From contig JADCGK010000117.1 of NCBI GenBank assembly GCA_020249045.1, positions 1 through 36,977 of the forward strand: 36,977 bases of DNA, in the 5' to 3' direction. Position 1 is the first letter of the stretch, and every line of letters begins with the position of its first letter. Below are positions 7,193 through 18,541 of this stretch, one piece after another. Source of the DNA: Azospirillum sp. GTDB taxonomy: Bacteria; Pseudomonadota; Alphaproteobacteria; CACIAM-22H2. Under the pieces are notes generated by a model that saw nothing but the letters and a program-made list of their open reading frames with translations, made no database searches and was not told the origin of the DNA. The position numbers and the translations under genes were made by a program.

Positions 7193-8431
7193 TTAGGTTT
7201 TCGTGCCCGGCGGCAACTCGGCTTGTTCGAGCTTCGCCCCGGCGAATTTCGTGACCGTGGTGCGAGCGCCCAGCAAGCGCGCGAAGCGCAGATCCGCCCC
7301 CGAAAAATCCGCCGCGCGCAGATCGCAATCGGTCAAGTTGGCGGCGATCTTCCGCCCCGACGGCTTGCCGTCCGGCCCCACGATGTCGGCGGGAAACAGA
7401 CTGGCTTTGCGCAGCTTGCACCCGCGCAACGAAGCGCCCATCAGCACGACGCCGGAAAGATCGGCCCCGTCCAAAATCGCGCCGTCGAGCCGCGCCTTCA
7501 CCATCGTGGCGAGCACGAGGCGCGCGCCGATCAACGTCGCGCCCGACAGATCGGCGCCGTCGAACGCAGCGCCGGCGAGATCCGCCCCGTCCAGCGACGC
7601 GCCCTGGAGCCCTAGCCCGGCGAAATTCGCGCGCGCCCCCACGCGTCCGCCGGTGCGCATCCAATCGGCGTGATTGCGCAGCATGACTTTGAGCTTTTCG
7701 GGCGACATCGCGTCTTCGCTGGGGGCCGGCAGTTTGGCCGCCTCCATATTGGCGCCGTCGAACGCAGCACCCGCGATGTTGGCGTCGGAGAAATTGGCGC
7801 CGCGCAGGTCGCAGCCGACCATCCGCGTGCCGCACAGCGCGGCACCCTTGAAGTTCGCGTTGGCGAGCCGCGCGCCGGACAGGTCGCATCCGGTCAAATC
7901 GGCGCCGGCGAAGGAGGCGCCGTTCATCTCCGCTTCCGCGAAGCTGCTGCCGCCGAGCTGTGCGCCGGCGAAATCGGCGTTGTCGAGCTTGGCTTTGCTC
8001 ATGTCGACGCCGTCGAACGTCGCGCCGCTGAAGGACGAGGCGCGCGATTCCGAATTCACCTTGATCGACTTGCCGGGCCGGAAATCGGCGTTGCGCAGGT
8101 CGCACGCGTTGATTTTGGCGCGCTCGAAATTGGAACCGCGGCCATCCATCCGGCGCAGGTCGCAACCGACCAGCGTTGCCGCCACGAAATCGGCGCAAAA
8201 CGCGTCCACGTCGGAAAGATCGCAGCCGACGAGTTCGCTGCCGCGCAGCACGGCGTCGCCCATCAACGAGGCGGACAGGTTGATGCCGTTGAGCTTCAAT
8301 TCGGCCAGGTCGAGACCGCGAAAATCCGCGCGTTTGCCGCCCTGCTTTCCGAACAGGAAAGCCGAGTGACCCACAAGGATGGTCTTGAGGACGTCGGGCG
8401 GAACCATTGATATACAATTGCAGTCGGACAT
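7193..8431 (-). CDS. Two-lobed pentapeptide-repeat protein
   Basis: This 412-residue protein is built almost wholly of A(D/N)LxG-type five-residue repeats, which fold into a right-handed quadrilateral beta-helix. Two stretches break the pattern and resemble each other: LKTILVGHSAFLFGKQGGKR near 15-34, and L-K-V-M-L-R-N-H-A-D-W-M with G-A-R-A-N-F near 247-270. Each precedes its own repeat block (about 35-235 and 266-405), suggesting an internal duplication. Loops at 119-131 and 348-364 interrupt the helix. No signal peptide is visible, so it is probably cytoplasmic. The second Met (residue 9, ATG at 8407) is an alternative start. Functions in this family range from gyrase protection to scaffolding, and none can be assigned here. 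It lies 36 nt after the AlaX-like gene. Confidence 0.85.
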   Translation of the reverse strand: MSDCNCISMVPPDVLKTILVGHSAFLFGKQGGKRADFRGLDLAELKLNGINLSASLMGDAVLRGSELVGCDLSDVDAFCADFVAATLVGCDLRRMDGRGSNFERAKINACDLRNADFRPGKSIKVNSESRASSFSGATFDGVDMSKAKLDNADFAGAQLGGSSFAEAEMNGASFAGADLTGCDLSGARLANANFKGAALCGTRMVGCDLRGANFSDANIAGAAFDGANMEAAKLPAPSEDAMSPEKLKVMLRNHADWMRTGGRVGARANFAGLGLQGASLDGADLAGAAFDGADLSGATLIGARLVLATMVKARLDGAILDGADLSGVVLMGASLRGCKLRKASLFPADIVGPDGKPSGRKIAANLTDCDLRAADFSGADLRFARLLGARTTVTKFAGAKLEQAELPPGTKT

Positions 8432-8467: not shown

Positions 8468-9169
8468 TCAGGCCAACGCCACGACGACCCGACGGTTGCG
8501 TTTGCCTTTGCTTTCGATTTTCTCGACCTTTACGGGACCGATCTCGCCGGTCTTCGCCACATGCGTGCCGCCGCAAGGCTGCAAATCGACGCCCGCGATG
8601 TCGAGCAGGCGGATTTTTCCGCCCCCGCGCGGCGGCTTGACCGACATCGTGCGAACGAGATCGGGCTTCGCGTCGAGCTCGGCTTCTTCGATCCAGCGCG
8701 GCGCGACCGGATGATCGGCCGCGATCAGGCGGTTGAGTTCGGCTTCGATCTTCTCTTTGTCGAAGACCACCTCGCCGGGGTCGAAATCCAGGCGCGAACG
8801 CTCGGCCCCCACCTGCCCGCCCGTCACGCCGGCCGGGATCGTCGCGCAGAGCAAATGCAGGCACGTGTGCATGCGCATATGCCGGTGACGGCGCGCCCAA
8901 TCGATCTCCGCCGTTACGGCGGCGCCCACCTGCGGCGGCGGCGCGTCGGGGGCCAGAACATGCAGGATGCCCGCCTCGCCCTTGCGCGTATCGACGACCG
9001 TCAACCGCGCGCCATCGGCCAGCACGAGGGCGCCGGTGTCGCCCGGCTGTCCGCCGCCCATCGGGTAAAAGACGGTGGCGTCGAGCACGACGCCCTCCGG
9101 CCCCACGGCCACGACCGTCGCCGGGCAGGCTTGCAGATAGGCGTCTTCGCGGAACAATTCCCGGGTCAT
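8468..9169 (-). CDS. AlaX-type alanyl-tRNA editing hydrolase
   Basis: This free-standing relative of the AlaRS editing domain deacylates Ser- or Gly-tRNA(Ala). Of 233 residues, GGGQPGDTG at 38-46 matches the beta-barrel part of the longer AlaX forms. The zinc site is seen as H101-x3-H105 in HTCLH, together with C199 and H203 in CGGTHV. No synthetase or C-Ala domain is present. An ATG exists at 9190, but the ATG at 9169 is preferred because AAGGA lies six bases upstream of it and the seven extra residues are not family-like. It is transcribed toward the pentapeptide gene and is divergent from the gene at 9338. Confidence 0.92.
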   Translation of the reverse strand: MTRELFREDAYLQACPATVVAVGPEGVVLDATVFYPMGGGQPGDTGALVLADGARLTVVDTRKGEAGILHVLAPDAPPPQVGAAVTAEIDWARRHRHMRMHTCLHLLCATIPAGVTGGQVGAERSRLDFDPGEVVFDKEKIEAELNRLIAADHPVAPRWIEEAELDAKPDLVRTMSVKPPRGGGKIRLLDIAGVDLQPCGGTHVAKTGEIGPVKVEKIESKGKRNRRVVVALA

Positions 9170-9337
9170 GCGTGGTCCTTTTTCTGACATGTGCGCGGGA
9201 TCGTCGGGTGCGGCCGCGCGGCGGTGTAGCGATCGGGGCGGGAAAATGCGGGCATGGACGAATTGGGCTCGTGGTATAAGCCCGATACTCTACCGCGTTT
9301 TTCCGGCCGATAGCACACGTCCGAAAAGGTCCGAGAC

Positions 9338-9862
9338 ATGGCCCGAACCGCCGATCCCCTCGCCGAGGCCGAGCGCTTCATGGCGGCACTGGACGAGAAA
9401 TCGGCGGCGGTCGATTCGGCGATCGCCGGGGCCCGCGCGGGGATCGCGCAGTCGGCCTTCGCCGCCTATAAAAAATTCTCCGACGCGATCGCCGATTTCG
9501 ACGGGTTTTGCATCCTGATCGAATACCGGATCAAGAAGGCTCCGCCCGGCCCCGCGCGCGCCTCGCTCGAAGCCCGGCTTTTGACCGCGCGAACGCACGC
9601 CATGTCGCGCATGCTCGCGGCGTCGATCGAACTGATCGGGGGGCTCGCCTCGCACAAGGAATTTCCGTTGGGGGCCAAAGAGATATTCTTGCGGGAATTG
9701 CGTTCGCTTTACGCCCTGAAGAACGCTTTGTCGCAGGAGCCTTACGCGAGCCAACTGGGCGCCGAGACGGCGCCCGACGTCGAACTCGCCGAGAAAATCC
9801 TGCGCGAAATCATCGATAAAGCGCCCGCTTTGCTGGAATTGACGCCGGCCAAGCCGGACTGA
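9338..9862 (+). CDS. Uncharacterised helical protein upstream of pseudokinase
   Basis: I do not recognise a family. The 174-residue product has no signal peptide or membrane segment and looks all-helical. It has charged amphipathic stretches: an alanine-rich helix from about residue 8 to 50, one around residues 75-110 and another at 145-165. The ATG at 9338 has AAAGG eight bases upstream. Codon composition is like the host background. It is followed after 110 nt by a membrane-anchored pseudokinase on the same strand and then a small membrane protein, so the three probably form one unit. It may be an adaptor or substrate for them, but that is inference from position only. Confidence 0.7.
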   Translation: MARTADPLAEAERFMAALDEKSAAVDSAIAGARAGIAQSAFAAYKKFSDAIADFDGFCILIEYRIKKAPPGPARASLEARLLTARTHAMSRMLAASIELIGGLASHKEFPLGAKEIFLRELRSLYALKNALSQEPYASQLGAETAPDVELAEKILREIIDKAPALLELTPAKPD

Positions 9863-9972
9863 AGGGCGGCACCGCGGGCGGGCCCAAAGTCTCCTTGACC
9901 ACGGCCCGTAACCCGTGAAACTCCATGGGGCGACGCGGGGCGGCAATTGCCGCGCCGCGGGAAAGCGGAGCG

Positions 9973-12015
9973 ATGGCCGAGGACGGCGAAATCGAGACGG
10001 AATCGGAGGCGCGGGTCGTCATCGGCGGCCGCGAAAGCGTCGCCCTGGGCGAACGCATCCGGATCCATCCCTCGCAAACCGTGCTCGACATGGCCGGGCG
10101 GCTGGCCGAGGCGTTCGCCGCAAGCGATTCCAACATGCCCGACAACCCGTGCGTGGCACTGGTGGCGCGGCCCGAGCAACTGCCGCGCGTGGGCGCGTGC
10201 ATGCAGCTTCGCGGGCTCGAACACGTGGGCGTTGCGAAACTGATCGATGCGGGCCCGGTGGCCTGGACCGACGGCACCCAGCGTTTCGCGATGGTCTACG
10301 AAACGCCCGCGGGGCCGCCGGTCTTGCGCAAGGGCAAACCGATCGAGCCCATCGATCCGCGCACCTTGTCGCGATCGTTCGTGGCGCCGGTCACCCAAGC
10401 GTTGGCCGAAATGAGCCGCCGCGGCGTGACGCACCGCGCGATCCGTCCCGACAACGTGTTTTGGTACGATTTCGGCAAGACCCGGCTGATGCTGGGTCCC
10501 GCCACCGTGGGTCCGCCGGGCGCGTTGCAGCCGGTGGTCTGCGAGTCCATGGAAATGGCGATGTGCGACCCGTACGGCAAAGGCGCCGGGACGGCCGGGG
10601 ACGACCTCTTTTCGCTGGGCGTGACGGTGCTGGCGCTGCTGCGCGGGGATTGGCCGCTCGCCGAGCTTTCGGACGAAGCGATCCTCGACAAGCGGCTGGA
10701 ACTCGGCAGCTGGGACGCGCTGGCGGAGAAATACAACCCACCCACCGAGCTCTACGATCTGCTGCGCGGCCTGCTGTGCGACGATCCGGCCGAGCGCTGG
10801 TCGCTGGCCACGGTCACGAAATGGGTCGACGGAACGCGCCCGCAATTGCCGCGCTTCACCATGCCCGGGCGGGCGCGCGAGCCGTTCATGTTCGAAGGCA
10901 AGCTGCTGCGCACCGGGCGCGAGATCGCCATCGCGATGGGAAAGAATCCCCAACCGGCCGCGACGATCATGCGCACGGGCTTGCTGCGCGACTGGGCGCG
11001 GCGGTCGTTGCCCGACGACGTGGCCGCGCGCAAAATCGACGCGATGTCCGGTCCGGGCAGTCAGGCCGGGCGCGACGGCGACGGCCCGTTGGTGGCGCGC
11101 GCGTGCATGGCGCTGGATCCGCTGGGACCGATCCGGGTCGGCAGCGTCGCGGTACGGCCGGACGGCTATGCGAGCGCGCTGGCGCGCGCCTTCATGGCCG
11201 ACAGGGCCAACTTGCCGGCGCTCGATGCCGCCATCCGCGCGGGCCTGCACATGGATTGGGGCGAGGCGCAGAAGGCCGCCCTGCCCAACCAGCGCGCCGC
11301 CCGGCGCATGACCGCCTTCGAGCGCTTGGGGCGCTGGGCGAACGAGGGCAGCGTGGGTTCGGGACTTGAACGGTGTCTTTACGAACTCGATCCGCGCATG
11401 CCGTGCCTGTCGCCGCTGTGCATCGACGGCTGGGTGGAGACCGCGGGCGACCTGTTGCCGGAAATCGACCGCGCGCTGGGCGAGGAGGCGGCGGCCAAGG
11501 AAGGTTTCGACCGCCATGTACCGGCCTTTTTGGCCGCGCGCGTGGCGGCCGACGAGGCGTCGCTGCGCGGGCTTTCGGGCGGCGTCGCGGACGAGGAGAC
11601 GCGGCTTGCCGCCTTGCGGCTGCTGGCCGAACTGCAGGAGACCTATCTGGTCGGCGCCTTGCCCAATCTCGCCCGCCAATGCGCCTCGCTCGTGCGCCCG
11701 ACGCTCGAACGCTATCAGCGCATTTCCACCAAGGAATACATCCGGACCCGGGCCGAGGCGGCGATCGCCCAGGGCGAACTGCGCGAACTCGTGCGCCTGG
11801 TCGACGACAAACTGGCGCTGGAGGCCGACCAGAAGGGCTTCAACTCCGCCAAGACCGAGTACACGGCCGCGTCGGAAAAACTGTCGAAGTCGGATATCGT
11901 GATGCTCGACCGCGCGCGGCAGGCGACGTATCGCGGTCGCGAAACCGCCGTCCTGGCCTCGGGATCGGTCGCGTTGGCGCTGTTCTTCATCGTGCTCGCC
12001 ATGCATCTCGGGTGA
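9973..12015 (+). CDS. Membrane-anchored protein-kinase-like protein (probable pseudokinase)
   Basis: The 680-residue protein has a eukaryotic-type kinase-like fold at about residues 35-290. The catalytic-loop position reads THRAIRPDNVFW (153-164): the HRD aspartate is alanine, while the later Asn is kept. No DFG follows (the region reads L-M-L-G-P). There is no clear glycine-rich loop or VAIK lysine. By contrast, the C-lobe structural motifs G-D-D-L-F-S-L-G-V (209-217) and D-D-P-A-E-R-W (270-276) are well kept. Phosphotransfer is therefore doubtful. The middle and C-terminal part (290-655) is helical and unrecognised, and the last 20 residues form one hydrophobic segment, so it is probably tail-anchored with the bulk in the cytoplasm. 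ATG 9925 is an alternative start adding 16 residues. The next gene begins 3 nt after the stop. Confidence 0.85.
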   Translation: MAEDGEIETESEARVVIGGRESVALGERIRIHPSQTVLDMAGRLAEAFAASDSNMPDNPCVALVARPEQLPRVGACMQLRGLEHVGVAKLIDAGPVAWTDGTQRFAMVYETPAGPPVLRKGKPIEPIDPRTLSRSFVAPVTQALAEMSRRGVTHRAIRPDNVFWYDFGKTRLMLGPATVGPPGALQPVVCESMEMAMCDPYGKGAGTAGDDLFSLGVTVLALLRGDWPLAELSDEAILDKRLELGSWDALAEKYNPPTELYDLLRGLLCDDPAERWSLATVTKWVDGTRPQLPRFTMPGRAREPFMFEGKLLRTGREIAIAMGKNPQPAATIMRTGLLRDWARRSLPDDVAARKIDAMSGPGSQAGRDGDGPLVARACMALDPLGPIRVGSVAVRPDGYASALARAFMADRANLPALDAAIRAGLHMDWGEAQKAALPNQRAARRMTAFERLGRWANEGSVGSGLERCLYELDPRMPCLSPLCIDGWVETAGDLLPEIDRALGEEAAAKEGFDRHVPAFLAARVAADEASLRGLSGGVADEETRLAALRLLAELQETYLVGALPNLARQCASLVRPTLERYQRISTKEYIRTRAEAAIAQGELRELVRLVDDKLALEADQKGFNSAKTEYTAASEKLSKSDIVMLDRARQATYRGRETAVLASGSVALALFFIVLAMHLG

Positions 12016-12018
12016 TCG

Positions 12019-12495
12019 ATGGCGATCCCGCGCACCTCGCTCGTCAAGCTCCTGCCGGCCGCGTGGTCGGCCGCCGGACTCGTGTTCGTGTCGCTGGTGA
12101 TCTTCCAGCCGACCTTGGCGATCTACATGCTGATCGCAGGTCTGCCGACGGCCGCGATCTTCATGATCGACGATGACCCCGAACAGCGCGGCGTTTTTTC
12201 CGTCGGTGCGCTCAACCTCGCGGGCACGTTGCCGTTCGTGCTGCTGGGGTCGATCGGCTATCTGCGTCAGCCGCCGCTCTGGACGGCGGCGGCCTATTTC
12301 TGGCCCTACGCGGGCGCGGCATTGGGAGCCGCGCTTTATTTCGGCGTGCCCATGATCACGCGGCACATCGCGCGCGTCGAGGAAACGCGCGAAAAACAGC
12401 GCTTGAGCGAGCGCCAGCAGGCATTGGTCGAGGAGTGGGGCCCGAACGTCTCCTCCGTCCAGCTCGATTTTTCGAACCGCGACGGGTTGGGCTGA
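12019..12495 (+). CDS. Small polytopic membrane protein paired with pseudokinase
   Basis: The 158-residue protein has about four predicted membrane segments: two close together at residues 10-50, one at 58-82 and one at 87-112. A charged cytoplasmic tail follows (113-158, rich in Glu, Arg and Gln, likely helical). I do not recognise a family. The ATG is 3 nt after the pseudokinase stop, so the two are almost certainly co-translated. Since both are membrane proteins, a complex is plausible but inferred. Confidence 0.75.
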   Translation: MAIPRTSLVKLLPAAWSAAGLVFVSLVIFQPTLAIYMLIAGLPTAAIFMIDDDPEQRGVFSVGALNLAGTLPFVLLGSIGYLRQPPLWTAAAYFWPYAGAALGAALYFGVPMITRHIARVEETREKQRLSERQQALVEEWGPNVSSVQLDFSNRDGLG

Positions 12496-12653: not shown

Positions 12654-13646
12654 ATGCGCATCAATCGCCGTCACATGCTTTCCGGGATTTCCGCCGCCGG
12701 TCTGGCGTCGGGCCTTTCGCTGCCCGCGATCGGGCAGGCGCGTTATCCCAACCGACCGGTCACGCTCGTTTGTCCTTGGGGCGCCGGCGGCGGGACCGAT
12801 GCCACCGCCCGCATCGTCGCCGCGATCCTCGAAAAGGATCTCGGCCAACCGTTCAACGTCGTCAATCGCACCGGCGGCTCGGGCGTCGTCGGCCACTCGG
12901 CGATCGCCACCGCCGCACCCGACGGCTACACGATCGGCATGATCACCGTCGAGATCACGATGATGCATCATCAGGGTCTGACCGAGCTGAAGCCCGACAG
13001 CTACACGCCGCTCGCGCTGATGAACGTCGATCCGCCGGGCGTGCAGGTGAACGCCAACTCCCCGCACAAGACGATCAAGGAACTGGCCGACGCCGTCAAG
13101 GCGGCTCCGCCGGGCCGCATGAAGGCCTCCGGCACCGGCCAGGGCGGCATCTGGCACCTGGCGTTGATCGGCTGGCTGCAGGCGATGGGTCTGCGGCCCG
13201 ACCATGTCGCCTGGGTGCCGTCGAACGGCGCAGCACCCGCCATGCAGGATCTGGCGGCGGGGGGCGTGGACATCGTCACCTGCTCGGTGCCCGAGGCGAA
13301 AGCGATGATCGACGCCGGCCGCGCGCGCAGCCTCGCCGTGATGGCCCCGCAACGCAACCCGCAGTTCCGCGACGTGCCGACATTGAACGAAGCGTTGGGG
13401 ATCAACTATTCCGTCGGGGCGTGGCGCGGCATCGCGGCGCCCAAGGGAATCTCGGCGGACATCAACAACACCCTCGTCGCCGCGCTCAAGAAGGCCTACG
13501 ACTCCAAGGAATTCCAGGAGTTCATGGCCAATCGCGGGTTCGGCACGACCTGGGCCGATCCGGCGGGCTTCGCAGCCTATATGGCCGAAGGCGACCGTGC
13601 GATGGGTGCGGCGATGACGGCCGCGGGCCTCGCCAAGCGCGCCTGA
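12654..13646 (+). CDS. tctC: Tripartite tricarboxylate transporter substrate-binding protein (TctC/Bug family)
   Basis: This is a periplasmic binding protein of the TTT transporter family. The 330 residues begin with a signal sequence, N-R-R-H-M-L-S followed by a hydrophobic stretch and a cleavage region near A-I-G-Q-A (about residue 29). The paired arginines suggest possible Tat export. Mature features are Y-P-N-R-P-V-T-L-V at its N-terminus, W-G-A-G-G-G-T-D-A near 43-51 and the A-A-P-D-G-Y-T loop, all typical of Bug proteins. The ATG at 12654 has a strong AGGAGGA 4-5 bases upstream. The ligand cannot be read from sequence; carboxylates are usual. It precedes tctB and tctA. Confidence 0.93.
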   Translation: MRINRRHMLSGISAAGLASGLSLPAIGQARYPNRPVTLVCPWGAGGGTDATARIVAAILEKDLGQPFNVVNRTGGSGVVGHSAIATAAPDGYTIGMITVEITMMHHQGLTELKPDSYTPLALMNVDPPGVQVNANSPHKTIKELADAVKAAPPGRMKASGTGQGGIWHLALIGWLQAMGLRPDHVAWVPSNGAAPAMQDLAAGGVDIVTCSVPEAKAMIDAGRARSLAVMAPQRNPQFRDVPTLNEALGINYSVGAWRGIAAPKGISADINNTLVAALKKAYDSKEFQEFMANRGFGTTWADPAGFAAYMAEGDRAMGAAMTAAGLAKRA

Positions 13647-13665
13647 ACCGGAACGATCGAACGGG

Positions 13666-13698
13666 CGGCGGCCCGAGAGACTCCATCGCGGGCCGCCG
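13666..13698 (+). promoter_or_regulatory. Stem-loop between tctC and tctB
   Basis: A perfect 10-bp inverted repeat CGGCGGCCCG/CGGGCCGCCG (13666-13675 with 13689-13698) has a 13-base loop. No T-run follows, so it is not a classical terminator. Similar hairpins downstream of binding-protein genes often stabilise the upstream mRNA or cause partial termination, giving more binding protein than permease. That role is inferred here. Confidence 0.6.
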
Positions 13699-13728
13699 TC
13701 ATTCCATTTCGAACCTTCCGGAGTGCCC

Positions 13729-14217
13729 ATGCGCGTGCACGACACGCTGCTCGGACTCTTCTTCGCCGCGCTCGCCGTGGCGATCCTGATTCTGACGGCC
13801 GATTTCCCTTCGTTCCCGGGACAGAAATACGGTCCTTCGTTGTTTCCGCGGATCCTCGGCGTGGGCATCCTGGTCTGCGCCGTCGTGATCGCATGGCGCG
13901 GCTGGCGCGAGTCCCGCCGCACGGGCGGACGCCGAATCGTCGCCGTGGACGCCGCGTTCGCCGATCCGGGCAAGCTTGCGTCCTTTCTGTTGGTGCCCGC
14001 GGGCGTCGGGTTCTATCTGCTGGCCGCCGATCGGCTCGGCTTCATCCCCACGGCCTTCGCGCTGCTGGCGGGACTGTTCTTGTGGTTCCGCGTGCGGCCG
14101 CTTCCCGCGCTGGCGATCGCGGCACTGACGACTGGCCTGATGCAATGGTTCTTCGGCACGTTGATGCGCGTGCCGCTGCCGCGCGGCTTGTTCATGCAAC
14201 TGATCCACGGGGGCTGA
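13729..14217 (+). CDS. tctB: Tripartite tricarboxylate transporter small permease subunit TctB
   Basis: The 162-residue membrane protein has four predicted helices. The first is residues 5-25; F-P-G-Q-K-Y-G-P-S-L-F-P-R-I follows, a typical TctB loop. Helices follow near 42-58, 82-100 and 105-150. TctB is the 4-TM subunit that partners the 12-TM TctA and the periplasmic TctC. The ATG at 13729 has GGAG at 13719-13722; an in-frame GTG at 13723 is less likely. tctA begins 4 nt after its stop. Confidence 0.9.
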   Translation: MRVHDTLLGLFFAALAVAILILTADFPSFPGQKYGPSLFPRILGVGILVCAVVIAWRGWRESRRTGGRRIVAVDAAFADPGKLASFLLVPAGVGFYLLAADRLGFIPTAFALLAGLFLWFRVRPLPALAIAALTTGLMQWFFGTLMRVPLPRGLFMQLIHGG

Positions 14218-14221
14218 GGCG

Positions 14222-15712
14222 ATGTCGTCCGCGATCCTCGCCGCGTTCGGATTGGTCTTCGATCCTTACGTGCTGACCGTGATCCTTCTGTCGGCGATCT
14301 TCGGGCTGTTCGTCGGCGCGATGCCCGGATTGACCGCGACGATGGCGACGGCGCTGCTGGTGCCGGTCACCTTCTTCATGAGCCCGGTTCCCGCCCTGGG
14401 CGCCATCGTGACGGCGACGGCGATGGCGATCTTCGCGGGCGACATTCCCGCGGCCATGCTGCGCATGCCCGGAACGCCCGCTTCGGCCGCCTACACGGAC
14501 GAGAGCTATGCGATGTCGCGCAAGGGCCAGCTGGAGCTGAACCTGGGCGTCAACCTCGTCTTCTCGGTTCTCGGGGGGTTGATCGGCGTCCTGGTGCTGA
14601 TTCTGGCGGCGCCGAGCCTCGCCGAACTCGCGATCAATTTCTCCTCGTTCGAGTATTTCTGGCTCGCCTGTCTCGGCCTGACTTGCGCGATCTTCATCTC
14701 GACCGGCGATCCGGTGAAAGGCTTCCTGTCCTTGTTCGTCGGCCTCGCGATCGGTTGCATCGGCATCGATCCGGCCGCGGGATATCCGCGCTTCACCTTC
14801 GGCAACGTCGATCTGATGTCGGGCATCAATTTCATCCCGACGATGATCGGGGTGTTCGCCGTGTCCGAACTGATGCGCGGCGTGATGACCGTCGACCAGG
14901 CCGGCCGGCCCGTTCAGGAAAAGGTCGGCGCGCTGTTCCGCGGGCTGGGCGAGGTCACGCGCAAATACTGGACGAATTTCCTGCGCGGGTCGGCCGTCGG
15001 TACGCTGATCGGCGCGCTGCCCGGCGCGGGCGCCGACATCGCGGCGTGGGTGTCCTACGCGATGGCGAAGCGCTTTTCGAAGGAGCCGGAGAAGTTCGGG
15101 ACCGGACACATCGAAGGCATCGTCGAATCGACCTCGGCCAACAATTCGGCGATCGGGGGCGCTTGGATCCCGGCGCTGGTCTTCGGCATTCCCGGCGATT
15201 CGATCACGGCGATCGTCATCGGCGTCCTCTACATGAAGGGCATGAACCCGGGTCCGACGGTGTTTCTGGAGAACCCGCAGCTGATCTACGCGGTGTTCAT
15301 CATCTTCATCCTGGCCAATCTGCTGATGCTGCCGCTGGGCTACGCCGCCATCCGCGGCGCGCGGCATTTGCTGGCGATCCCGAAGAACGTTCTGCTGCCG
15401 ATCATCCTGCTGTTCTGCGTCGTGGGATCCTTCGCGATGACCAACAGCCCCTACGGCATCGTGCTGATGCTCATTTTCGGCGTCGTCGGCTGGTTGATGG
15501 AGGAGAACGGAATTCCCGTCGCCCCGCTGATCCTCGGCCTGGTGCTCGGCGAATTGCTCGAGCACAGCTTCATGACCTCGATGATCAAGTCGGACGGCGA
15601 ATTCCTGGTGTTCTTCCAACGGCCGATCGCGGGCCTGCTGGGGGCGCTGACGCTGACGACATGGGGCTTGATGCTGTGGCGGGGACTGCGACCCGCCCGC
15701 GCGGCAATCTGA
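14222..15712 (+). CDS. tctA: Tripartite tricarboxylate transporter large permease TctA
   Basis: This is the large transmembrane subunit of the secondary TTT carboxylate transporter. The 496 residues show the repeated TctA signatures: F-V-G-A-M-P-G-L-T-A-T-M-A near residues 29-41, and G-A-L-P-G-A-G-A-D-I-A near 262-272. Downstream are E-S-T-S-A-N-N-S-A-I-G-G near 302-313 and F-G-I-P-G-D-S near 320-326. Length and helix density are normal for the family. Genes tctC-tctB-tctA form one operon. No dedicated TctDE two-component pair is next to it; the convergent hybrid kinase downstream is of a different type. Confidence 0.96.
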   Translation: MSSAILAAFGLVFDPYVLTVILLSAIFGLFVGAMPGLTATMATALLVPVTFFMSPVPALGAIVTATAMAIFAGDIPAAMLRMPGTPASAAYTDESYAMSRKGQLELNLGVNLVFSVLGGLIGVLVLILAAPSLAELAINFSSFEYFWLACLGLTCAIFISTGDPVKGFLSLFVGLAIGCIGIDPAAGYPRFTFGNVDLMSGINFIPTMIGVFAVSELMRGVMTVDQAGRPVQEKVGALFRGLGEVTRKYWTNFLRGSAVGTLIGALPGAGADIAAWVSYAMAKRFSKEPEKFGTGHIEGIVESTSANNSAIGGAWIPALVFGIPGDSITAIVIGVLYMKGMNPGPTVFLENPQLIYAVFIIFILANLLMLPLGYAAIRGARHLLAIPKNVLLPIILLFCVVGSFAMTNSPYGIVLMLIFGVVGWLMEENGIPVAPLILGLVLGELLEHSFMTSMIKSDGEFLVFFQRPIAGLLGALTLTTWGLMLWRGLRPARAAI

Positions 15713-15722
15713 CCGGGACCGC

Positions 15723-17672
15723 TCAGGGCACCGCCGCACGCGCGACGTCGGGTGCCGGCCGCAGATCCGGCACGACCAAGGCGAAATCGGGCAGGTGCTT
15801 GCGCAATTCCTCGGCCAATTGGCGCAAGCGGAACGGCTTGGCCAGATGCCCGTCCATGCCCGCGGACCGGCAGCGCGCGACGTCGTCGGCGAAGGCGTTG
15901 GCCGTGCACGCGACGATCGGCAGCTTGCCGCGCGCACCGGGCAGGGCGCGGATGGCGGCCGCCGCACCATAGCCGTCGAGCTCGGGCATGTGCAGATCCA
16001 TCAAAATCAGATCGAAATCCTCGCGCGCGGCGATCTCCAGCGCCTGCCGCCCGTCCTCGGCCACGGCATACTCGACGCCGAGCCGATCGAGCATCGACAG
16101 AACGACGGCACGGTTGGTCTCGTTGTCCTCGGCGACCAGCACGCGCGCGCGCCGCCCGCCCGCGCCGGGCGCCAACGCCTCGACCTTGCGCGCGGCTTGC
16201 GCGACGGGCGCTTCTTGGACCTCGGGCATGTCGAGTTCGAACGCGAAGACGCTGCCCTCGCCCGGCGCGCTGTCCACCGTGATCGTTCCGCCCATGCGGT
16301 CGATCAGGCGTTTGGCGATGGCCAGGCCCAGCCCCGTGCCGCCGTACCGGCGCGTGATCGTGGCGTCCGCCTGGCGGAACTCGCGGAACAATTCCGGCAA
16401 CGCCGCAGGTGCGATGCCGATGCCGGTATCGACCACGCGAAAGCGCAAGACCGCCCGGCCCGCGCCGCGCGACACGACGTCCAAGGCCGCGCGCACCGTG
16501 CCCCGGGCGGTGAACTTGATCGCGTTCGACAGGAAATTGATCAATGCCTGCCGTACGCGCGCCTCGTCGCCCGCAACGAAGGCCGGCAGATTTGCGTCGG
16601 CCGCGGCTTCGAAGCGCAAGCCCTTGGCGGCGGCGGCCCCCGCGAAGCCGCCCGCCGCGCTTTCGAACAGCGCGCGCGGATCGAACGGCCGGCATTCGAG
16701 ATCCAGATGGCCCGCTTCGAGCTTGGAGAAATCGAGAAGATCGCCCAGCACGCGGGTGAGATGGTCGGCCGAATCCCGGATCGTGGCGGCGATCTTGCGC
16801 TGGCCGGGTACGAGATCGGTTTCGAGCAGCAGCGACGCCGAACCGATAACGCCGTTCATCGGGGTACGGATTTCGTGGCTCATCATCGCCAAGAATTGCG
16901 ACTTGGCGCGGTTGGCCGCGTCGGCCTGATCGCGCGCGAGGCCGAGTTCGGCCACGCGCCGCTCGATCTCGGCGGCCATGGTCGAAAAACTCTGCGCGAG
17001 TGCCGCGATCTCGTCGTCGCCGGGCGCGCTGGGGCGCACGCGATAGTCGCCCCGGCGCAGCGCGTCGGACGCGCGCGCGAGTTCGACGAGCGGCCGGGTC
17101 GTCGAGCGGTGCGCGAGCCCCAGCAGAAGCCCGCCGGCCAGAATCGCGGCCAGCGACACCCACAACGAACGCCAAAGCAACGCGGCGAACGCCTCGTCGA
17201 TCGCCGCAGCGGAGAAGCCGAAGAACAGATAGCCCAAACGCTGATCGGCGAACTCGATGGGCATCTCGAACAGCAACCGCGCGCCGACCGCCCCATTGGC
17301 GAGCCGCCCGTCCGACAAACGCCCCCCGGACTTGCCTTCGGCGACCGACGGCAACCCGTCGCGCTCGATCGTCCAGCCCGCGGCGGCCACCAGCCGGTCT
17401 TGCGCGTCGCACAGCACCAGATGCGCGAAGCTGCCGGCCGCCACCGATTCGCGCACGATCTGCGCGGCGGTGGCGTAATCGCGTTCGGCCAGCGGGGCGG
17501 CGAAAGTGGCGTTGAGGAAGGGCCGGTCGCTCGCCGCGCGCGCCGCGAGCTGGTTCAGCAGCGCCTCGCGCACCTGGATGGCGTGCGCGAAGGTCAACGC
17601 GGCGGCCGTGGCGACGATCGCGAGAATGCCAGCCGCGAAAATCCGGAACCGGAACGAGGTCCGCGCGAGCAT
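15723..17672 (-). CDS. Membrane hybrid sensor histidine kinase/response regulator
   Basis: The 649 residues comprise TM1 (9-31), a periplasmic sensor region (about 32-163), TM2 (167-187) and a HAMP linker (about 188-242). The DHp H-box [10 protein letters not shown] follows with phospho-accepting H266. The ATPase domain has N-box N383, G1 DTGIGI (415-420) and G2 GGTGLGL (444-450). The receiver (about 508-628) has acidic A-E-D, phospho-acceptor D559 in LILMDL, T590 and K612. No Hpt or output domain is present, so the phosphate must leave by another protein. The gene starts 23 nt after the PhnD-like binding-protein gene, which probably feeds its periplasmic domain. A stand-alone receiver at 24703-25170 is closely related to its receiver. 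Confidence 0.95.
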
Positions 17673-17695
17673 GGCGGGGCCGGTTCCCTTCCGGC

Positions 17696-18541
17696 CTAGC
17701 GCGCTGTCATGAAACCGCGCGTGGCGGCGACGGTATCGTCCAAGGCGGTCATTTCGGCGAGCGCCAGGGGGCGCACGGCCTGCACGCCCGCGCGGCGCAG
17801 GAACTCGCGGCCATCCTCGCTTTGCGGCAGGGCGAGGACGGCGGTGCGCAAATCGCGTACGTCGGCGTCGGGCAACGCGCGGGCGGTCGACAGCACGAAA
17901 CCCGGCACGCGGGCGAACTCGACGAGTTCCTCGAGCCGCGCGCGCAAATCGGGATGCACGGCCATCAATTCGCCGCGGCTCATCATTGCCAGCGGGGCTT
18001 CGCCGGTGCTGAGCAACTGGGCGAGGCTTTCGTCGTTGCGCGCGTGGATGGTGCGGTAGTCGCGATCGCGGACGAGCCCGCGCGCCTCCAGCCACGCCAC
18101 GCCCTTGAGTGCCACGAGCGACTGGGGGTTGGACAGCGCCAGCGTCTTGCCGCGCAGCTCGGCGACGTCGCCCACGCGGCGGTCCTTCCACATCACGAGG
18201 CAGCCGGGGATCCCCGGCTCATAGATCGCGAACGGGGCGAGTCCGTGATCGAGCTCGGCCAGCCGGGTGAGGTTGGCCGGCGCGATCGAAAGATCGTAGG
18301 CGCCGACGATCATACGCTCGTAGAACGCGCGGAAATCCGTCGCGGTCGCGATTTCGACGGGGCGGTTCAACGCGCGCTGCAACTGGTCGCGGAACGGCTG
18401 GTAATTGGTCAGGATAAGGCGCGCATTGACGTTGGGCACGACGCCCACCTGCAACGGCCGGGCTTGCGCGCGCGCGGGGATGGGGGCGGCCGCGCAAGCA
18501 GCGAGCAGCGCGAGCATCCGGCGGCGGGATGGTGCGGACAT
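17696..18541 (-). CDS. PhnD-like periplasmic substrate-binding protein, likely input for the adjacent hybrid kinase
   Basis: The 281-residue exported protein starts with S-R-R-R-M-L-A-L and a hydrophobic stretch ending A-R-A-Q-A near residue 27, a possible Tat signal. The mature part matches the phosphonate/phosphite-type binding family (PhnD-like): [17 protein letters not shown] near the N-terminus, Y-D-L-S-I-A-P-A-N at about 82-90, and [13 protein letters not shown]. No ABC permease or ATPase gene is nearby, and the next gene is a sensor kinase. It is therefore more likely a sensory binding protein than a transport component. The ligand is unknown. Its upstream region ends at the left attachment repeat of the island, 120 nt before the ATG. 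Confidence 0.85.

Follow-up and report, generated by a model that had tools for sequence, protein, structure and literature searches.

A tail-anchored pseudokinase paired with a four-helix membrane protein in Alphaproteobacteria

Which part of a three-gene locus in Azospirillum sp. is a conserved unit, and what would a kinase-like protein that has lost its catalytic residues do at the membrane? The locus lies in a window of 36,977 nucleotides, i.e., the whole stretch of DNA that was analysed (contig JADCGK010000117.1), and was brought up by a sequence-only reading as a possible membrane-bound signalling or scaffolding module.

Genes of the locus and their neighbours

As that reading had described, three reading frames follow each other on the + strand. 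The first, which heads the cluster in its own genus, encodes a 174-aa all-helical soluble protein (9338–9862). The second encodes a 680-aa tail-anchored pseudokinase (9973–12015, with the ATG at 9973; a longer reading frame starting at 9925 is also present), and the third a 158-aa four-helix membrane protein (12019–12495), which we term 4TM and regard as the probable obligate partner. Exactly 3 nt separate the pseudokinase stop from the 4TM start (TGA TCG ATG). The arrangement is not due to chance, since its proteins have full-length relatives, its genes are under purifying selection and the pseudokinase/4TM pair recurs in 125 of 374 Alphaproteobacteria.

The cluster is preceded on the opposite strand by an AlaX-like gene (8468–9190). 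Adjoining this tRNA-editing gene is a gene for a 412-aa pentapeptide-repeat protein with nine matched stretches (7193–8431, - strand). Directly downstream of the module lies a complete tripartite tricarboxylate transporter, tctC-tctB-tctA (12654–15709, + strand). The ancestral locus lacks tctCBA.

Kinase-like domain and loss of catalytic residues

Structure prediction of the 680-aa protein with AlphaFold2 from a 72-sequence alignment (pLDDT 90.6, pTM 0.84) yielded a kinase fold, and a kinase-like domain was delimited at about residues 20–290 (10030–10842, + strand) by AlphaFold2, VIA and hmmsearch. The predicted structure matched WNK3 with a VIA Z of 23.7 (257 aligned residues, rmsd 2.9) and the TYK2 pseudokinase domain with a VIA Z of 22. 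For the kinase-like domain, hmmsearch gave an E-value of 3e-12 against MK2, and the PF00069 match of the 680-aa protein (32.1 bits) lies just over the Pfam cut-off of 31.7; the same Pfam family was matched in 67 of 72 family members.

Equivalent positions were set by a profile alignment with MAPKAP kinase 2, and residues were counted in 106 non-identical long relatives. The window protein has Val64 at the VAIK-lysine position, Ala156 at the HRD-aspartate position and Pro176 (10498–10500) at the DFG-aspartate position, i.e., none of the three residues of an active Ser/Thr protein kinase. The HRA motif noticed at residues 154–156 (10432–10440) was confirmed as H154-R155-A156. Within the family, the lysine position is occupied by Ile or Val in 97 of the 106 members and by Lys in one, and the HRD-aspartate position by Ala, Ser, Gly or Asn in 103, Asp in two and Lys in one. 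Glu (41 members), Asp (38), Pro (24) and Gln (3) share the DFG-aspartate position. The claim that DFG is missing thus holds for the window's clade, which has Pro, but not for the family as a whole, 79 of whose 106 members have one of the acidic residues Asp and Glu there. None of the 106 members has a glycine loop GxGxxG or an intact catalytic set; of the residues K/D/D, 65 members have none and 41 have a single one. Catalytic loss is a family-wide trait, with no clade among these members containing an intact kinase, and by these data the NCBI annotation of family members as 'serine/threonine protein kinase' is misleading.

Five residues, namely Asn161, Asp211 (alpha-F), Asp270, Arg275 and Trp276, are present in 106 of 106 members, which indicates that the fold is under constraint. 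Among pseudokinase pairs within the genus, dN is 0.03–0.15 versus a dS of 0.35–0.85, and all three genes show purifying selection (dN/dS well below 1). The earlier suggestion that the fold is kept for binding rather than phosphotransfer agrees well with these invariant structural positions and the lack of an intact catalytic set. Since the DFG position is acidic (Asp or Glu) in most members and Asn161 is found in all, the members with that acidic residue may bind a metal or a nucleotide. The same acidic residue could be cited for a still-active protein kinase with a non-canonical base, and some proteins without the HRD aspartate do retain low activity. However, the lysine, the glycine loop and the HRD aspartate were lost in concert, along with DFG in the clade of the window copy, and we consider residual kinase activity extremely improbable.

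C-terminal domain and membrane anchor

The C-terminal half had been called unrecognised, and so it proved: no convincing Pfam family was found for it in any of 72 members. Residues 297–612 (10861–11808) are predicted to form a helical domain without a known family, including two beta-hairpin plus helix units (about residues 300–345 and 386–430). Two strong signatures mark this domain. The first, nearly invariant among relatives, is GxGxERxLYELNPxxPCxS at residues 462–480 (11356–11412), or GxGxERxLYELNPxxPCxSP if extended to residue 481, and the second is DRHIAAF (513–519). E466, R467, Y470, C478, S480, D513 and H515 are invariant polar residues of the domain. A comparison of the C-terminal domain and the 4TM protein with PDB sequences gave nothing convincing, the weak matches to designed armadillo repeats spanning 22 residues.

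These invariant residues bear on an alternative in which the kinase pocket or the helical domain runs another reaction, comparable to AMPylation by SelO or glutamylation by SidJ. The many invariant polar residues of the C-terminal domain, Asn161 and the frequent Asp or Glu at the DFG position speak for such a repurposed catalyst; against it, the VAIK lysine and the glycine loop are missing, whereas SelO and SidJ retain the lysine (PMC12599244), the window's clade has proline at the DFG position, and the invariant residues may be structural. On balance, we regard a repurposed catalyst as unlikely.

The domain is followed by a predicted 67-residue helix (613–679) that enters the membrane, its transmembrane segment comprising residues 659–677 of 680 (11947–12003). 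Such a tail segment is present in 100 of 106 members, with a median of four residues beyond the 19 residues scored, and 85 members have no further hydrophobic segment. The pseudokinase is therefore best described as a predicted tail-anchored membrane protein with a single transmembrane segment at its extreme C-terminus, and the sequence-only reading was right in all parts of this description, i.e., the kinase fold, the anchor and the missing catalytic residues.

The four-helix protein and its co-occurrence with the pseudokinase

The 158-aa protein is predicted to contain four membrane helices, the last one extended as a long helix (pLDDT 90.8) whose cytoplasmic location we infer from the even number of membrane helices and the basic N-terminus. 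The conserved end of this helix carries the motif LxxRQxxLVxEWG (residues 129–141; 12403–12441), and P43, W140 and G141 are the sole invariant residues among 61 4TM sequences. A fold search with the 4TM protein returned no match (best E 1.5).

Both proteins were searched in 374 Alphaproteobacteria of at least 90% completeness, with weak matches of a generic kinase type and incomplete 4TM matches set aside. A single-protein scan of the genome contigs had given no matches, and a 28-row alignment was too divergent for patterns, while a narrower alignment was usable. A strong pseudokinase match was found in 125 of the 374 genomes, about a third. The 4TM protein was scored in 124 of these 125 and, after a second profile, in all of them, since in the sole exception (G310) the pseudokinase is directly followed by a divergent 4TM ORF. 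None of the 249 remaining alphaproteobacterial genomes has a 4TM protein without the pseudokinase, although these counts are not phylogenetically independent and common gene order accounts for part of them.

The 4TM gene lies directly downstream of 129 of 137 kinase ORFs, and within 700 nt downstream on the same strand for 132 of 145 pseudokinase copies. The other 13 copies either have their 4TM gene at another place in the genome or come from genomes in which a second pseudokinase lacks a 4TM gene of its own; an extra pseudokinase for which a second 4TM gene was not found occurs in five genomes (G112, G146, G228, G297 and G360). Loss of the partner was considered for the eight kinase ORFs that have no 4TM gene next to them, and dropped, as they are explained by a partner elsewhere, contig ends or frameshifts. 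Likewise, an apparent pseudokinase-4TM gene fusion in L103 turned out to be a frameshifted kinase tail. The partner was present in seven of seven named genomes probed for a split or damaged pair (Magnetospirillum fulvum and others, including one intact control), and in all checked genomes with non-adjacent pairs, from Magnetospirillum and others, the 4TM gene was located elsewhere in the genome. The whole pair is tandemly duplicated in L165 (G144:C2:120000-137000), G261:C80 and G327:C5, which is a further sign of its copying as a unit.

The two genes might nevertheless be mere neighbours that have independent functions and stay adjacent because gene order is conserved. In favour of this, they share an ancestral and stable locus, and the correlation of the distance matrices of 98 protein pairs (r 0.94, permutation maximum 0.11) is not corrected for the species tree, which confounds it. 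However, both genes persist once separated, which gene order by itself can hardly explain, pseudokinase paralogues located elsewhere bring their own 4TM gene, and no genome has the 4TM gene only. Mere neighbourhood is quite improbable on these grounds.

Distribution and ancestral gene order

In a phylum sample of 249 genomes, the carriers were Alphaproteobacteria only; one genome of another class gave a weak match (E 8e-26) confined to profile positions 67–396, mostly the kinase part. The few records labelled as other phyla fall within clades of Alphaproteobacteria and are most likely misassigned bins. Among the named carriers are Azospirillum, Magnetospirillum, Telmatospirillum, Skermanella, Thalassobaculum, Niveispirillum and SAR116, Azospirillum brasilense and Magnetospirillum being cultured, and small genomes of 1.4–2 Mb are also represented. 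The pair probably dates back to an ancestor of a large share of the class.

The ancestral locus has the order serC-serA-hisZ-purA-pseudokinase-4TM and is convergent with rpoH-rluD. The pair is located on large replicons in the Azospirillum sequences NZ_CP029830.1 (L055) and NZ_CP029356.1 (L056), in the latter between purA and rpoH, and is annotated in both as 'serine/threonine protein kinase' plus 'hypothetical protein'. In many genomes, ftsH is found roughly 10–25 kb from the pair on the same contig and strand. In two related genomes (L152:335-2827 and L153:4112-6649), ftsH is followed after 7 nt by the 4TM gene, the pseudokinase being elsewhere. A pseudokinase behind tilS, the usual ftsH neighbour, was observed in one of these two genomes (L121) and in G217 (L169).

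With purA and rpoH as ancestral neighbours and ftsH within about 10–25 kb, the client process might belong to heat-shock regulation or to the quality control of membrane proteins, which is a lead and no more. In its specific form, the pair would be a membrane quality-control regulator that tunes the turnover of FtsH or RpoH (sigma-32). The conserved gene order, the distance to ftsH in many genomes and the split pairs, with a 4TM gene behind ftsH or a pseudokinase behind tilS, are in its favour. However, the whole neighbourhood is an old gene-order block in which proximity by itself says little, and paralogues, the window copy included, reside at other loci. In addition, the window's own genome and most genomes with a pseudokinase encode HflC, the known FtsH modulator, which led us to reject the idea that the pair stands in for HflKC. 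Tuning of FtsH or RpoH is distinctly unlikely. The broader proposal of a class-wide alphaproteobacterial dead-kinase/4TM machine controlling membrane protein turnover or the adjacent heat-shock sigma factor is, in our estimate, a long shot.

Paralogous pairs and the helical gene

The genome of the window has four pseudokinase genes, each with its own 4TM gene. The window copy belongs to a genus-level clade of 11 (support 100), while the copy on contig C57 groups with genus copies that retain the purA/hisZ context (L052, L082). For the window pair and the C57 pair, pseudokinase and 4TM share their closest relatives. Contig C139 (G000:C139; L049, L050) holds two very divergent pseudokinase/4TM pairs 20 kb apart (16405–18324 and 36803–38719), which are 40% identical to each other and whose 4TM genes have diverged too far for placement.

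The 174-aa protein lacks a transmembrane segment and matches neither a Pfam nor an NCBIfam family. Elsewhere, relatives of it are found apart from the pseudokinase/4TM pair, at unrelated loci, and suggest no function; a tandem pair of relatives conserved in the genus occurs at L053:5588-6660, a locus without a pseudokinase. In its own genus, all 11 genomes carry the gene upstream of the window copy, and no other copy is preceded by it. Of the proposed three-gene module with conserved order, genes 2 and 3 stand as a conserved unit in other genomes, whereas the helical gene is a genus-level addition.

Comparison with known pseudokinases

A 2025 review of bacterial pseudokinases covers the ActPs1-3, GLW, CP1, DYD and DLHK families, EssB, SidJ and SelO, none of which, compared by description, has the present catalytic loop, C-terminal domain and partner (PMC12599244). 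A literature search found no description of the pseudokinase/4TM pair. EssB/YukC, the pseudokinase subunit of type VIIb secretion, resembles the present protein in having a dead kinase lobe, a single transmembrane helix and a role as non-catalytic scaffold of a membrane complex (PMC12599244). However, it is Gram-positive and encoded in a secretion locus, its catalytic loop entry is unlike HRAIRPDN, and neither an ERxLYELNPxxPCxSP helical domain nor a dedicated 4TM partner is described for it (PMC12599244). The structure matches listed for the 680-aa protein are active kinases, and EssB is not among the matches listed. No type VII secretion locus surrounds the pair, its neighbours being purA, rpoH, serA and hisZ ancestrally and the AlaX-like and TctCBA genes in the window.

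The GLW family, which is also proteobacterial with a C-terminal transmembrane region and degradation of all three catalytic motifs, differs in that GLW replaces HRD and LLLL/W replaces the lysine strand (PMC12599244). Membership was rejected, as GLW occurs in 0 of 106 members, where the loop reads H(R/G)(A/S/G/N)IRPxN. Among the families reviewed, GLW is the nearest in lineage and architecture, and it is the defining motif that sets it apart. The DLHK pseudokinases, which keep the HRD aspartate and have no transmembrane region (PMC12599244), fit in neither feature. The pseudokinase domain of MviN (ActPs3) with FhaA provides another membrane-linked pseudokinase that recruits a regulator, but MviN is a large actinobacterial transmembrane protein of peptidoglycan synthesis and recruits through a phosphorylated tail (PMC12599244). 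Active bacterial Ser/Thr kinases such as PknB and PknA, which supply the top Foldseek matches, share the kinase fold and the membrane tether, with the difference that their catalytic residues are intact. PknB has, beyond its transmembrane helix, an extracellular sensor that is absent from the window pseudokinase. Anti-phage defence was also considered and rejected: the matches were generic to the kinase domain (MADS6, MkoA, PD-T4-6), the NCBIfam match was far under its cut-off, and the locus is vertically inherited and housekeeping.

Proposed function of the pair

The most plausible reading, to which we assign a probability of roughly 60%, is that the pseudokinase and the 4TM protein form an obligate, non-catalytic two-subunit membrane complex acting as a scaffold or sensor. 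The 680-aa protein would be cytoplasmic, with its last helix as a tether to the inner membrane. The kinase lobe, presumably incapable of ordinary phosphotransfer, would constitute a protein-binding platform together with the helical C-terminal domain, and the 158-aa protein would be the dedicated membrane subunit. The long 4TM helix ending in EWG most likely packs on the juxtamembrane helix of the pseudokinase (613–655), a placement proposed from single-chain predictions, and would pass on or receive a membrane signal. In the window's genus, the pair was duplicated as a pair, the window copy gaining the helical gene, possibly for a soluble partner. As to the membrane-bound complex suggested earlier, the association with the 4TM protein is well documented by the gene pairs, and we infer from there the physical complex, its orientation and its role.

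Few bacterial pseudokinases have been described, and fewer have a known function. The present one is no relic, as about one in three of the Alphaproteobacteria sampled have retained it together with its 4TM partner, and the pair would offer a clean two-gene system for testing what a pseudokinase does at the membrane.
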